Virus record (IMG/VR): IMGVR_UViG_3300018429_000004
Coordinates: 1 to 58,561 of that record
Origin: a virus
Direction: 5' to 3' (one strand)
Length of the DNA stretch: 58,561 bases
The notes under the pieces: generated by a model
Told to the model about the DNA's origin: nothing
What the model saw: the letters and a program-made list of their open reading frames with translations, nothing else
Databases searched by the model: none
Shown: piece after piece, positions 3,807-50,464 of the stretch
How positions within the stretch are numbered: position 1 is the first letter of the stretch
Layout of the letters: every line of letters begins with the position of its first letter
Position numbers and translations under genes: made by a program

Positions 3807-6800
3807 TCACGCCAGCGCTTCGGCGTACTTCTGACCGTCGAGCCACAGTTCCGCCTTGGCGCGGCGATCCATCCCGGGCGTGACGATGATCTGGATGCTG
3901 TTGAGCAGGCGAGCCAGCGCCTGGATGTCCAGTCCTGCACCGCCGTTGCCCTGCCCGAAGTTGGCGTCCACCATTTCCTGGAACGCCCTGGTCTGCGCCG
4001 GGGAGAGCACGCGCTCAGGCTCCAGCGTGGCCTTGTGCATGATGCCCCTGCCGTTGGCCACGCCCCCGGAGTCGAAGATGAAGTCCAGGATGCTGAACTT
4101 CTTGCGCATCCCGCTGAGCACGTCCTTGGAGATGCTGGCGAAGAACGAGCGAGAGTTCAGGAACCCCGACGTCCCCAGCTTGTCGAGGAAGTCCTTCGGG
4201 TTCGGCAGCGAGAAGCCCTTGTGCGGCGCCACCGAGTCGGCTCCGGCAAGCCACGCGGCAGTACCCGCCTGGGTCCCCGGCGGCCGCACCTCGAAGTGGA
4301 GGTGGGGGCCGGTGCTGTTACCAGTGGAGCCGGACAGACCGATGATCTGTCCCGCCGTGACCTGCTGGCCCACACGAGCCAGCGTGCTGGAGAGGTGGGC
4401 GTAGATCGTCTCGACACCCTCACCCTTGATCCGCACGTGCTTGCCGTAGGAGTACGTCAGGTGGCGTACGGCGGTGACCAGGCCGTTGATGGCCGACATC
4501 ACCCGGGTGCCGCTCGACACCGGGAAGTCGACGCCCGTGTGACCCGCGTAGCCTCGGCCCATCGTCCGGCTCTGAACCGGGTAGACCCGGCCGCCGCGTG
4601 CATAGCCCTCGTCACGAGCACGGCGAGCGGCGCGACGGAAGGCCTTACCGCCCTCCGGCCACTGGCCAGTGTTGTTCATGTAGTCGAGCGCGCCCGGCTG
4701 CGTCTTCTCCAGCCGACGACGAGCCGCCTTGCTCATCACGAACTCATCGGCGTGGACAGCACCGGCCACCTTGTACTTGCCGCCAGGACCCGTCCAGCCG
4801 CCGCCCGCGAAGCCGGGGATCCTGCCGGAGTAGTCCGGCACGCCGGGGATCTTGCCGATTGCCCGCAGGAACGGCACCAGGGCCTTGTTGCGTACGTCGC
4901 GGAGCGGATCACGGATGGCCGCACCTACGCCGCTCCAGGCCCGCGCGATGGCATCCTTCGCCGAGCGGAAGGAAGCCGGGATCTTACCGACCGCGTCGCG
5001 GACGTTCCGGAAAATCCCCTGGATCCGATCAGCCCGGGACCGGATCGAGCCGACCAGGCTCTCCCAGATCTCCCGGCTGCGATCCCGGAGGTTTCCGAAG
5101 GCGTTCTTCGCGTCGGTGGCCATCTTCTGCACGCGCTTCACTGTGGATGTGATCAGCGCGTGGAACGGGTTGAAGAACTTGGACAGGTTCAGGCCCTGCT
5201 TCCATGCCTTAGACCAGTCACCACGCAGGAGCGCAGAGGCGAACTTCACCATCGAGGTGATGATCTTAATGACCCGGCCGAGCGAGCGGAAGAAGATCTC
5301 GATCTGAGCCGCGACGACCGGTCCGAAGGCCTTCAGCAGCGCCTTGGCGATCGGTCCAAGATCCTTGCCGAGTTCACCGAGAGCCTTCATCAGGTCTTCG
5401 AGCAGCGGCTTCATCTCCTTGAGCCCCTGGTCGATGACCGGCTTGATCGCCTTGAAGAATCCCTCGAAGCCTTCCCGCAGCGGCTTGCTCTTGTCGGCCA
5501 GCGAGCCGAAAGCAAGCGCCAACGCGGCGATCACGCCGACGGGCCCACCGACCACGAAGGCCGCGACTCCGGCGAGCACAGGCAGCAGAATCGGTGCCAG
5601 CGGCTGGATGGCCTTGAGGAACTTGGCGAAGGAGTCGACGACCCCGGCGACCACAGGACCGAGCACCTCGAAAGCCTTACCGAGGTCTTCACCGACCGTC
5701 TTCAGGATCGGGAACAGGGCCTTGCGGAAGGCATCGAGTGAGGGGGAGATGTCCTCGAAAGCCTTGCCGAGCCCAGACAGCACCGGCCCGAAGACAGCCA
5801 CCAGGTCGTCGAACCCGTCAGACATCACACCGATAGCCTGAGAGACCTTGTTGATCTTGCCGTCATCGAGACTGGCCGTCCAGCGCTCGAAGGCCTCGCC
5901 GATCTCGGAGAACTTGTCAGCCATGTCGCCAGCGGAAGGCAGGAGGGCGTTGAAGAGTTGCAGGAACCCCTTACCGAAGGCCTGAAGCCCCGGACGCAGC
6001 CGCTCGAAGACGTCAGCGACCCGGTCCATGATCGTGCTGATCAGTTCGATGCCCGGCGCGCTGCCCGCCCAGTCGGCGAAGGCGTCGATGATCTTGCCAA
6101 TGCTGCCGCCGATCTTCTCCATCCCAGGCTGCAGGCCTCGGGTGATGGTCTTGCTGAGCTTCTCGAAGGAATCCCCGACCTGGCTGAAGATGCTCTCCTG
6201 CACAGCATCACGCAGAGCGCCCCACTCGTCGCTGAGGCTACGGATGGACTCAGCGGTCTCGCGCGCCGACGGTGTCAGCCCGTTGAGGGCGTCACCGCCG
6301 CTCTTGACCGCCTCGAAGAAGCCCTTCATACCGATCACCGCGACACCCGCCGCGATGCCCACAGCGCCAAGGACGCCAGCCATGGCACCCAGCGCGGCAG
6401 CCAGACCAGCCAGGAGAGGACCGATCGGCGTCACGGCGACGGTGAGCCCGGAGAAGAGCGCAGTCAGCTTCAGGATCGCAGCCTGCGGGTCGGAGAAGAC
6501 CTGGGACTTGAACGACTGCCCGAAGCCGCCGCTGAAGGAATCGCCCGAGTCCTTCCCGGCACGGCGGAAGATCCCAGCAAGGCGAGCGAAGGCTGACTTT
6601 TTCGGTTCCTCTACCTGGGTCTCAACCTCGATGACCATGTCGAGGCGCTGGACCAGCGCCCGGAGGCGCGCAGTCTCCCGCATGAACTCCGGGGTGTTCA
6701 CCTCGGGGTCGAGCAGGACGGTCAGGTCCCGCTTGGCCAACTCGGTCTGGGCCTTCTTCAGTTCGCTGGTGAGGACGCTCTTCCGAATCTCAGGGTCAAT

Positions 6801-44659: not shown

Positions 44660-45670
44660 GTGTTCGCATCAATCATCGCGGCGGTCTTCGTGATCATCGC
44701 CGTCTTCGCCTTCGTGGCGCGAGGCGTGTTCAAGAGCGGCGTCAAGGCCGCGCAGGAAGAGGTTGACAAGTTCCGGGAAAACGGGACTCAGACGTACGAG
44801 GACCGGCAGCGCAAGGAGGAAGCCGAGGACAAGGTCAACAACGACTCCTTCGCCGCTACTGGCGCGCTCGGCGCCGCGCTGGTCTGCCTCGGTATCGCGG
44901 GCATCGTCATGTTCTTCGCCTGTTCGGCCATCGTCGAGGCCAAGCAGGTCGGCGTCGTGAGCACCTACGGCAAGGTCCACGAGCAGACGATGAAGCCTGG
45001 CTGGAACTGGAAGACCCCGTTCGACAAGGTCACCGAGATCGACGCCACCACACAGACCGACGAGTACAAGGGCGAGGATGCGATCCAGGTCCGGCTGAAG
45101 GACGGCAACACCGCCGAGGTCTACACCACGGTGCGCTGGTCCATCTCGTCGGAGAACGCCAGCCAGGTCTACTCGGAGTTCCGCTCGGACGACCCGACCG
45201 ACTCGCTGCGCAAGGCCATGGTTTCCACGCAGTTCAAGGCCGCCTCGAACGCCGAGTTCGCTTCGTTCGACCCGCTGAGCCTGGCCGGTATCGACGGTGA
45301 GACGCCGGACTACAAGGCGCTGGCCAAGGGCGTGCAGGACCGGCTGGAGAACGAGACCGAGGGTCTGGTCAAGGTCCGCTCGGTGACGGTCAGCCTGATC
45401 AAGTTGGACAAGCGCAGCCAGAAGCACCTCGACGACTACGTCGCTCAGGTCGCCAAGACCCGCGTGGCCAACGAAGCCAAGGAGACGGCCACCGCGCAGG
45501 CTGCCGCTAACCGCGAACTGGCCTCCTCGATCGCCAAGGACCCCAACGTCCTGGTCAACAAGTGCCTCGACACCGTGGCTGAGGCTGTGGCCTCGGGTGC
45601 TTCCCTCCCGGCAGGCTTCAACTGCATGCCTGGTAGCGGCACCGGAGTCGTGATCCCGAGCACCCGATGA
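44660..45670 (+). CDS. SPFH/prohibitin-like membrane protein (336 aa)
   Basis: GTG 44660 follows AGGAGAAGCAA. Two membrane helices (about 2-21 and 70-93, GALGAALVCLGIAGIVMFFA) precede an SPFH (band 7) domain: EAKQVGVVSTYGKVHEQTMK, PGWNWKTPFDKVTEIDA, DGNTAEVYTTVRWSI. A helical coiled coil (KTRVANEAKETATAQAAANR) follows, and a Cys-containing C-terminus. SPFH proteins organise membrane microdomains and hold protease regulators. In phages a role in membrane stress control or exclusion is plausible but unproven. Confidence 0.85.
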   Translation: MFASIIAAVFVIIAVFAFVARGVFKSGVKAAQEEVDKFRENGTQTYEDRQRKEEAEDKVNNDSFAATGALGAALVCLGIAGIVMFFACSAIVEAKQVGVVSTYGKVHEQTMKPGWNWKTPFDKVTEIDATTQTDEYKGEDAIQVRLKDGNTAEVYTTVRWSISSENASQVYSEFRSDDPTDSLRKAMVSTQFKAASNAEFASFDPLSLAGIDGETPDYKALAKGVQDRLENETEGLVKVRSVTVSLIKLDKRSQKHLDDYVAQVAKTRVANEAKETATAQAAANRELASSIAKDPNVLVNKCLDTVAEAVASGASLPAGFNCMPGSGTGVVIPSTR

Positions 45671-46019: not shown

Positions 46020-46274
46020 ATGAGCCACTTTGACGGAGGCGCTGAAGACCTCCGCGACGAGTACCTGGCAGCCACGCTCAAGAAGGCGGGCCTGCCCGAG
46101 CACCTCGAAGTCTCGGAGATGCGCCTGGAGTACGGGATCAAGGACGCCGCAGGCACTGAGTGGTTCGGCTACGCCGACCGCGCCGCAGCAGAAGAGTTCT
46201 CTGGCGATGGGGACACCGTCATCGTACGTGAGGTGATCCTCACCGAGGGACACCCGGCGACCCCCCGTGAGTAG
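46020..46274 (+). CDS. unknown acidic protein (84 aa)
   Basis: AGAGGAGAGAC precedes ATG 46020. The product contains LPEHLEVSEMRLEYGIKDAA and AEEFSGDGDTVIVREVILTE. It is the first gene of the nuclease-helicase unit. No family recognised. Confidence 0.5.
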   Translation: MSHFDGGAEDLRDEYLAATLKKAGLPEHLEVSEMRLEYGIKDAAGTEWFGYADRAAAEEFSGDGDTVIVREVILTEGHPATPRE

Positions 46275-46551
46275 CCAGCGCGAGCGCAGCGCCGAGAACA
46301 AACTGCGTGACGGCGTCAAGAAGTTGGGCGGTATGGCACTGAAGATGGTGCCAACCGTCTCAGGCATCCCTGATCGTCTGGTGCTCTTGCCTGGCGGTGT
46401 GGTCTACTTCGTAGAGCTGAAGCGACAGTCTGGTGGACGGCTCAGCGAGATCCAGAAAGTGCAGATCAGTCGACTGCGCGCAATGGGGTATGACGTCGTC
46501 GTGCTCCGAGGAACTGATGAGGTTGCCGAATGGCTGTCCTCCCTGACCTGA
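46267..46551 (+). CDS. VRR-NUC nuclease (94 aa)
   Basis: GTG 46267 overlaps the previous gene. The product matches the stand-alone phage VRR-NUC nucleases: RSAENKLRDGVKKLGG with the conserved E, GIPDRLVLLPGGVVYFVELK with the PD-(D/E)xK residues Asp and E-x-K, then SEIQKVQISRLRAMGYDVVV. It likely acts as a structure-specific (Holliday junction type) nuclease with the SNF2 helicase beside it. Confidence 0.9.
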   Translation: MSSQRERSAENKLRDGVKKLGGMALKMVPTVSGIPDRLVLLPGGVVYFVELKRQSGGRLSEIQKVQISRLRAMGYDVVVLRGTDEVAEWLSSLT

Positions 46552-46566
46552 AGGAGGTGATGCCCA

Positions 46567-47938
46567 ATGCCTAGTCTCCACCGGTACCAAGAGCGCGGAG
46601 TAGCCCATCTTCACGAGCACCCTCGCGCAGGTCTCTTCATGGAGCCAGGTCTTTGACCTCGGCAAAACTGCCACCTCGCTCTCGGCACTAACGCCCGAGC
46701 ACCTGCCCGTGTTGGTGATCGCGCCAAAGCGGGTGGCTACACGCGTCTGGCCTGAGGAGGTACCGAAGTGGCGCCCGGACCTCACCATCGCGGTCGCGGT
46801 CGGCTCTCCGGCCAAGCGAGCACGGATGCTGGCCAGCAGGGCTGACATCATCACAATCAGCCAGGACTCGATCAAGGACGTGCCGGAGAAGCACAAGTTC
46901 CGCACGGTGATCATCGACGAGTCACATAACTTCAAGAGCCGCGACACCAATCGGTGGCGGCTGGCCAAGAAGATCACCAAGCGCGCCGAGCACGTCTGGC
47001 TCCTGACCGGCACACCGACTGGCAACTCTTCGCTGGACCTGTGGCCGCAGGTCTACCTGCTCGACCAAGGCGAGCGACTTGGTGTGGAGATCGCTGGTCG
47101 GAAGAACACCGGGATCGTCGCCTTCCGCAACCGCTACTTCAGTCCGGCGCTGATCCTCGACTCGGGCGTGGTGGCGAAGTGGACGCCGAAGCCTGGCGCC
47201 GACCAGCGCATCCTGCAGTTGATCGGCGACATCTGCCTGTCCATGAAGGCCGAGGACTACCTCGACATGCCCGACCTGTTCACCAACGAGGTCAAGGTCG
47301 AGATGCCCTCGGCCGCGCAGCGAGCGTACGAGGGTCTGCGCGACAATCTCGTGGCTGACCTGGAGATCCTGGGCAGCACCATCCACACGGCGGCCAACTC
47401 CGCCGTGCTCACCGACCGGTTGGCTCAGGTCACAGCCGGGTTCCTCTACGGTGACGAGACCAAGGCGGTCACCCGGCTCCACAGCGTCAAGATCGACGCG
47501 CTGAAGGAGATCGCCGAGGAGGCCGGGAGTCCTCTCCTGGTCTTCTACCGCTTCATCGAGGAGGCGAACATGATCCGCGAGGCCTTCCCGGAGGCCAAGG
47601 GCGTGGACGACCGTGGCGCGCTCGATGACTGGAACCGTGGCCGGGTTCCGCTGCTCCTGGCGCACCCCAAGTCCGCCGGAGCAGGGCTGAACCTGCAGGC
47701 CGGGGGTCATCACATCGTCTGGACCAGCCCCAACTGGTCTCTGATCGACTACAAGCAGGCGAATGACCGCCTGCACCGCCAAGGCCAGGGGCATCCGGTG
47801 ATCGTGCACCACCTCGTGGCCGAGAAGGTTGACCGAGAAGCAATCAAGGTCGTCCGGGGCAAGAAGACCTTGCTCGAAGCAGTGCTTGACACTCTGGGCG
47901 TCGACCCAGAGGACTACAACGAAGGAGACGCCGCATGA
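46567..47938 (+). CDS. SNF2-family helicase, reading frame joined by a +1 frameshift
   Basis: MPSLHRYQERGVAHLHEHPR at 46567 (strong AAGGAGG site) reads to MEPGL and a TGA at 46654; the body of the helicase continues in the +1 frame to 47938. Motifs follow in order: a shifted motif I (L-G-K-T), VLVIAPKRV (Ia), IIDESH (II), LLTGTPTGNS (III), LLVFYRF, SAGAGLNLQAGG (V) and QANDRLHRQGQ (VI). The shift site CTTTGAC is identical to that of RF2. With seven bases removed the text would read MEPGLGKT, a canonical motif I. So it is either programmed frameshifting or a mutated or mis-sequenced gene. Confidence 0.8.
46651..46657 (+). promoter_or_regulatory. RF2-like +1 frameshift site CTTTGAC
   Basis: CTT-TGA-C is the exact slip sequence used in prfB: the tRNA on CUU moves to UUU and translation resumes at GAC. 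GGAG lies nine to six bases before it, a weak Shine-Dalgarno-like stimulator. The zero-frame product would be only 29 residues. Confidence 0.5.
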
Positions 47939-50146: not shown

Positions 50147-50464
50147 ATGACCAAAGGAAGCCGTGCTTACGAGCGCGCACACCGTCTAATTCGGAAAGCC
50201 AAGGGACGAGCAGCGGACCAACTTTGCTGCTCCTGTGGTGCTCCCGCTGAGCAGTGGGCTTACCACGGTGAGCGAGGAGAGCACGAGAAGATGCCTTATT
50301 CCCTCAACCCGGACGACTACCGAGCGATGTGCAGGCAGTGCCACCTCAAGAAGGACCGAATCGGCAAGTATGAACGCACGCCTGAACTGATCGAAAAGGT
50401 ACGCAGCATCAGGAAGACCAACGCCGCAGCCCGCACCACGCCACGTAATTGGCTGCCGGGTTGA
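50147..50464 (+). CDS. HNH-type endonuclease-like protein (105 aa)
   Basis: The product carries CCSCGAPAEQWAYHGERGEH then YSLNPDDYRAMCRQCHLKKD, the C-x-x-C / C-x-x-C-H zinc layout of HNH proteins of the small actinophage type in which A-x-x-W-A-Y precedes the DDY-x-x-M-C-x-x-C-H block. The full catalytic H-N-H is not complete (W-A-Y-H-G in place of D-H). It may be an inactive or recombination-associated member. Confidence 0.65.
   Translation: MTKGSRAYERAHRLIRKAKGRAADQLCCSCGAPAEQWAYHGERGEHEKMPYSLNPDDYRAMCRQCHLKKDRIGKYERTPELIEKVRSIRKTNAAARTTPRNWLPG

Follow-up and report, generated by a model that had tools for sequence, protein, structure and literature searches.

The window analysed here, a virus record of metagenome type comprising 58,561 bases (IMGVR_UViG_3300018429_000004), encodes an SNF2 helicase whose gene is interrupted within motif I (GxGKT) by a stop codon and a change of reading frame. 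The helicase is most probably made by short programmed translational bypassing, or a 'stop hop', whereby the ribosome would leave a leucine codon in front of the stop, pass over seven nucleotides and resume at the codon that completes the motif. Interruptions of the same anatomy are found at the same motif in at least 152 unique loci, representing at least 102 clusters (below 80% identity), and the reading frames downstream of them are under purifying selection.

The break in the window helicase

The helicase gene lies on the plus strand and opens at ATG 46567, preceded by a strong Shine-Dalgarno sequence (AAGGAGGTG, 46551–46559). Its first coding segment of 29 codons (46567–46653), which translates to MPSLHRYQERGVAHLHEHPRAGLFMEPGL, ends with the codon CTT (46651–46653), identified as the take-off codon by motif-rebuilding alignment. 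The break reads CTT-TGA-C-CTC-GGC-AAA-ACT. Seven nucleotides, TGACCTC (46654–46660), separate the two segments; they consist of the stop codon TGA (46654–46656), a single C and the landing codon CTC (46658–46660). The second segment (46661–47938) resumes at GGC AAA ACT, remains open in the +1 frame through 47938 without a stop, and carries the SNF2 ATPase domains (PF00176, SNF2-rel_dom, E=4.7e-16; phrog_62, E=1.8e-128). Motif I is intact only if the seven nucleotides are bypassed: joining GGT CTT to GGC AAA ACT yields GLGKT, while +1 reading yields GLDLGKT, with two additional residues in the P-loop. A first-pass annotation of this DNA had described a 29-codon frame with a strong ribosome site running to CTT-TGA-C, with the helicase continuing in +1, and had noted that removal of seven bases restores GLGKT; the window sequence bears out both points.

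In the proposed mechanism, the ribosome would read 29 codons to CUU, placing UGA in the A site. The peptidyl-tRNA-Leu would then release CUU, shift seven nucleotides forward and pair with the synonymous CUC, and translation would restart at GGC to give an unbroken GLGKT. A small hairpin found by folding (AGGTC-TTT-GACCT, 46647–46659) contains the take-off and stop codons, and the break region and its hairpin are not more stable than shuffled sequences (z -1.1). No intron or other element was detected by Rfam at the break site, and no second SNF2 copy of the same family, which could stand in for a dead gene, was found in the window. Sequence matches to solved SNF2 structures added nothing about the insert.

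Anatomy of the breaks and alternative explanations

A nucleotide search of annotated phages with the window returned weak matches only, and protein searches were therefore used. A helicase scan of viral contigs identified one close relative, L002 (92% amino acid identity), and 29 others at about 30–41%; the distant relatives that cover the break region are uninterrupted. L002 is broken at the same motif but in another form (GGT CTC GGT TGA CTG TGC AAG ACA), with nine extra nucleotides and an in-frame TGA. A DNA pattern encoding EPGL followed by TGAC gave 17 matches, of which L002 alone was genuine and the others were due to chance. Further loci were gathered by an HNH alignment search (L061–L140), by two DNA patterns (L141–L334), for which counts refer to the matches listed and are lower bounds, and by searching genomes and viral contigs with an alignment of the helicase sequence 3' of motif I (L335–L494). 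Segments were placed by a script using a 22-residue profile for the first segment and the conserved KT for the second, with all G-L-G rebuildings enumerated.

Three complete genomes carry the break: Glutamicibacter phage Montesquieu, with a nine-nucleotide gap and the stop TAG (GAT ATG TAG CTA ATC GGA CTT GGA AAG ACC), Paenibacillus phage Pd_22F (GGT TAG GT AAA ACA) and the chromosome of Anaerocolumna sedimenticola. Pd_22F was found via the HNH search, as was the interrupted Ruminococcus phage NatCom_23091 (GGT TGA C AAA ACT). The helicase of Brevibacterium phage LuckyBarnes is uninterrupted. The seven-nucleotide form of the window recurs in L277 (CTT TGA C CTT GGC), although the two helicases are only 39% identical, and the same layout recurs in a second subfamily of SNF2 helicases with about 25% identity (L085, L108). 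In another member of this second subfamily (L104, about 4010–4115) there is an apparent double gap, GAA TAG CCCC GAA ATG GGG TGC GGT TAG GT AAA ACC, each part of which has a stop and a matched landing codon.

Removal of the gap restores an exact motif I in the interrupted relatives. Gaps are 1, 2, 4, 5, 6, 7, 8, 9, 10, 15 or 17 nucleotides long, mostly 4–7, and are distributed over all three frames. A stop codon directly follows the take-off codon in 96 of the 102 clusters listed (TGA 57, TAG 30, TAA 9), while the other six have a sense codon there (for example CCA, CTA, AGG or TCG), mostly with the landing still matched. Samples gathered independently of any pattern had the stop too (32/36 for the one based on HNH; 7/8 and 3/4 for those based on the helicase), and it was present in all 99 interrupted loci listed from the pattern scans, even though the TRR of those patterns admits TGG besides stops. 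At four loci (L068, L069, L072 and L130) CCA replaces the stop after a take-off glycine codon (GGT/GGC CCA ...), with a matched or near-matched landing; CCA may be a slow codon here.

In 96 of 96 cases the landing triplet and the take-off codon agree at two or more of their three positions, with C and T scored as equal at the third position. When landing triplets were shuffled among loci the mean was 68, and none of 20,000 shuffles reached 96; random coding triplets gave a mean of 23 and a maximum of 37 in 5,000 draws. Leucine take-offs are paired with leucine landings (CTG/CTG, CTA/CTA, TTA/TTA, CTT/CTT), apart from two landings on CCC or CCG, and glycine take-offs with GGN, AGY or GAY, and once with CGC. 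The window, with CTT and CTC, is a match. Relatives would thus hop from GGU to GGU, GGC, GGA or the near-cognate AGC, AGU and GAC, from CUN to CUN, from UUA to UUA and from AUG to AUC, over distances of 1–17 nucleotides. The first segment spans 29–35 codons in relatives, mostly 31, suggesting that the nascent chain would roughly fill the exit tunnel at the moment of the hop.

The downstream frames of interrupted loci are open for about 420 codons and under purifying selection. The median ratio of nonsynonymous to synonymous substitution rates (dN/dS) was 0.063 downstream for 43 pairs with a common hop type and 75–98% identity; between the window and L002, dN was 0.037 and dS 0.33. In pooled pairs, the corresponding ratio of differences (pN/pS) was below 0.32 both for the first segment and for the twelve codons 3' of the gap. 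Selection on both segments indicates that both are translated, and they are most simply translated together because the second segment alone lacks the K and T of the P-loop.

These observations bear on several other explanations. The first-pass annotation had weighed a programmed event against an error or mutation; programmed recoding is now strongly supported, while the release factor 2 (RF2) type of +1 shift that it favoured is not. In such a shift, the P-site tRNA would slip from CUU to UUU and read GAC, giving GLDLGKT, and the helicase level would sense RF2. The heptamer CTTTGAC (46651–46657) is indeed an exact prfB slip site, the frame change in the window is +1, and the large four-nucleotide class (GGT TGA C) is also net +1. 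Nevertheless relatives use all three frames, and TAG or TAA replaces TGA in 39 of 96 clusters, so that sensing of RF2 is not a general feature. CTTTGAC also occurs in L065 (CTT TGA CTA GGG) and L319 (CTT TGA CTT GGC), where reading resumes in the zero frame, which argues that the heptamer is incidental; it is not what is conserved at the breaks. In prfB a Shine-Dalgarno sequence is located three nucleotides before CUU. No Shine-Dalgarno of this type is present in the window, where GGAG ends six nucleotides and AGG one nucleotide before CTT, and the shifted product would retain the two extra P-loop residues. An RF2-dependent shift is very unlikely. Readthrough of UGA, also raised earlier, or a reassigned stop would suit gaps of six or nine nucleotides that remain in frame, as in L002 and Montesquieu. 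Most gaps shift the frame, however, so that readthrough is excluded for the out-of-frame majority, and no tRNA gene, hence no suppressor tRNA, is present in the window; as an explanation it is extremely improbable. Only resumption on a matched codon, in whatever frame, fits all of these data, which points to bypassing.

A sequencing or assembly error might be suspected in a metagenome-type record, but this one motif is broken by differing gaps in numerous independent assemblies as well as in isolate genomes, including L002, Montesquieu and about 100 clusters; error is refuted for the class and scarcely credible for the window. An uninterrupted GLGKT in all close relatives, which would have spoken for a mutation, is the opposite of what was found, L002 being itself interrupted. 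Alternatively the gene could be dead, with the inserts as scars of nuclease cutting or of imprecise repair and no helicase made. Some inserts do resemble small duplications (TTAGG occurs twice in Pd_22F), HNH genes adjoin many breaks, and the interrupted state changes often on the helicase tree described below. On the other hand, random scars would not produce a first-codon stop and a matched landing triplet each time, the rebuilt motif is exact, and gap-sharing pairs retain long intact reading frames at the low dN/dS given above; loss of function is thus an improbable reading. Less probable still is a split gene, with each segment a polypeptide of its own and the second made from an internal start, as annotated downstream coding sequences in Montesquieu and Pd_22F would have it. 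Since the break separates G from K in the P-loop, or else interrupts or immediately precedes GLG, an internal start would lose K and T, and conservation persists from the resume codon up to the earliest position at which a start is possible (T 100%, L 100%, A 92%).

Neighbouring genes and the possible origin of the gaps

A gene for a VRR-NUC nuclease of 94 amino acids (46267–46551, plus strand; PF08774, E=4.5e-5; phrog_93, E=4.6e-23) lies directly 5' of the window helicase. VRR-NUC is also the neighbour in L002, Montesquieu, Pd_22F, the NatCom phages and most interrupted loci. An HNH_3 gene lies between VRR-NUC and the helicase in L002 and Montesquieu and adjoins the helicase in Pd_22F and the NatCom phages (PF13392: L002, E=5.9e-9; Montesquieu, E=2.5e-7; Pd_22F, E=1.1e-14); the window aligns to L002 on both sides of this gene, without the HNH itself. 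Where HNH lies just upstream, 40 of 46 helicases (87%) are interrupted. Samples gathered by helicase similarity contained 9 interrupted among 79 genome loci and 8 among 77 viral loci, a rate (17/156, about 10%) that is valid for the part of the family to which the interrupted members used to build the query belong. The difference in interruption between HNH-sampled and HNH-less loci is significant (p=4e-23). HNH as an obligatory partner was rejected, as in many interrupted loci VRR-NUC immediately precedes the helicase and HNH is absent. Other HNH types, AP2-like in L277, lie 5' of the interrupted helicases of L277 and L297, so that the involvement may extend beyond a single HNH family.

Mapped onto a tree of 178 helicases, the interruption state has at least 41 changes, fewer than the 59 obtained with shuffled labels, and gap length at least 72; interruption is far from having a single origin. 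These repeated changes, the HNH neighbour and the recurrence of the layout in the second subfamily suggest that gaps have been gained again and again while the DNA of motif I was under attack. The gaps would alter the conserved-motif DNA that neighbouring HNH_3 endonucleases are proposed to cut, while the hop would leave the protein unchanged. By analogy with the proposal for T4 gene 60/mobA, the gaps may or may not have arisen and persisted through HNH immunity, the chances being about even. HNH-less loci such as the window could then be resistance alleles whose endonuclease has been lost or is owned by competitors.

Among HNH-bearing loci with uninterrupted helicases, L091, L094, L107, L122 and L052 mostly have an unusual motif I (GLGKS, DCG, EMG, LGLGMGKT). 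The altered motifs in this group read DCGLGKS, EMGLGKS and LGLGMGKT, the last in Corynebacterium phage StAB, which has HNH and an uninterrupted helicase. An altered motif I would change the DNA target too, and these cases are suggestive of a second escape route from cutting.

Several observations weigh against the hop or its proposed role. The hop and the joined peptide are predictions from sequence. None of the known mRNA structures of T4 gene 60 was found at the breaks, and folding did not differ between interrupted and uninterrupted genes at the site (p=0.91) or 3' of it (p=0.34), with a weak shift 5' of it (p=0.04). The common four-nucleotide class (GGT TGA C / GGT TAG C) has GAC or AGC as its landing triplet and makes only two of three pairs. 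Synonymous choices are also shared 5' of the breaks: the first glycine of GLG is GGC in 64 of 71 interrupted helicases, with take-off at the second glycine, compared to 17 of 83 uninterrupted ones, and the leucine codon is TTA or TTG in 53 of 71 compared to 22 of 83. A pure hop model does not account for these choices, which are a constraint at the nucleotide level. Finally, the HNH association is weak within the helicase-based samples alone (p=0.03), and many interrupted loci, including the window, have no HNH neighbour, so that the HNH link is not the whole story.

Some further features were observed in these loci. In Montesquieu (L032, about 1430–1460) the Shine-Dalgarno sequence of the helicase, GGAGGTGAT, has ATA rather than ATG at the usual distance after it, a possible AUA start. 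The HNH gene of NatCom_23091 (L054, 2703–3228), and likewise that of L056, is broken in two by a frame change close to an A run (RKKN*/IRNARL), possibly through slippage or decay. In the window, a phage SPFH/Band 7 protein (44660–45670; PF01145, E=2e-18) is encoded just 5' of the helicase region, and a small HNH-like open reading frame with a CxxC...CxxCH zinc finger lies at 50147–50464; no sequence relation between it and the HNH_3 proteins of the relatives was found.

Comparison with known systems

Until now programmed bypassing in phages has been established for T4 gene 60 alone. Shorter-distance counterparts of it have long been presumed, and no natural occurrences of in-frame stop hopping are known (PMC5009743); a possible bypass has been noted at the HNH-associated tape measure gene of mycobacteriophage Corndog (PMC4351075). 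No report of interrupted phage SNF2 helicases or of natural short stop hops was found in a literature search that most preprints and subscription journals lay outside of. The sites described here number about 100, are diverged and natural, have gaps of 1–17 nucleotides, and come from phages and prophages whose hosts include Firmicutes and actinobacteria. Such a set makes bypassing comparative, since rules for take-off, stop, gap and landing become readable and testable, and it offers a reason for the sites, namely that homing nucleases would be kept off a conserved motif while the protein pays no price. Interrupted helicases are currently truncated by gene finders. The chances are about even that phages commonly use natural stop hops of short range, with the fast-evolving micro-bypass sites of motif I serving as silent HNH-resistance alleles that have been gained and lost dozens of times, sometimes with an HNH cassette.

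The window resembles prfB in its CTT TGA C heptamer. The helicase sites differ from prfB in lacking its type of Shine-Dalgarno sequence, in their varied frames and stops, and in that a +1 shift would break the motif. The mitochondrial byp elements of Magnusiomyces capitatus are closer in kind: many short inserts are bypassed in needed genes, and two-of-three pairing at landing is tolerated (PMC5009743). These are, however, mitochondrial, with 81 sites spread over 12 genes, whereas the helicase sites occupy one motif of one gene family, and the A-site codon in M. capitatus is an unused codon.

Synthetic stop hops in E. coli (Weiss et al. 1987; +5, +6) have the same form as several of the helicase cases (CTT TAG CTT, GGT TGA GGT), the difference being that those were constructs whereas the helicase sites are natural. 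With T4 gene 60 the helicases share a take-off codon with a stop immediately after it, a matched landing and, as predicted for the helicases, a product restored across the insert, as well as, in many loci, a nearby HNH endonuclease gene, in T4 mobA. The T4 insert is thought to be protective against cleavage (PMC5009743, PMC3014915), and it has been proposed that the gap conferred protection from the nuclease that spread the neighbouring homing endonuclease (PMC5009743). The gap in T4 is 50 nucleotides, in contrast to 7 in the window and 1–17 in its relatives. At the helicase sites no stem-loops were found, the nascent chain is only about 31 codons long, and many cases have no HNH gene; where T4 gene 60 is one case, the breaks in SNF2 motif I recur in about 100 clusters.
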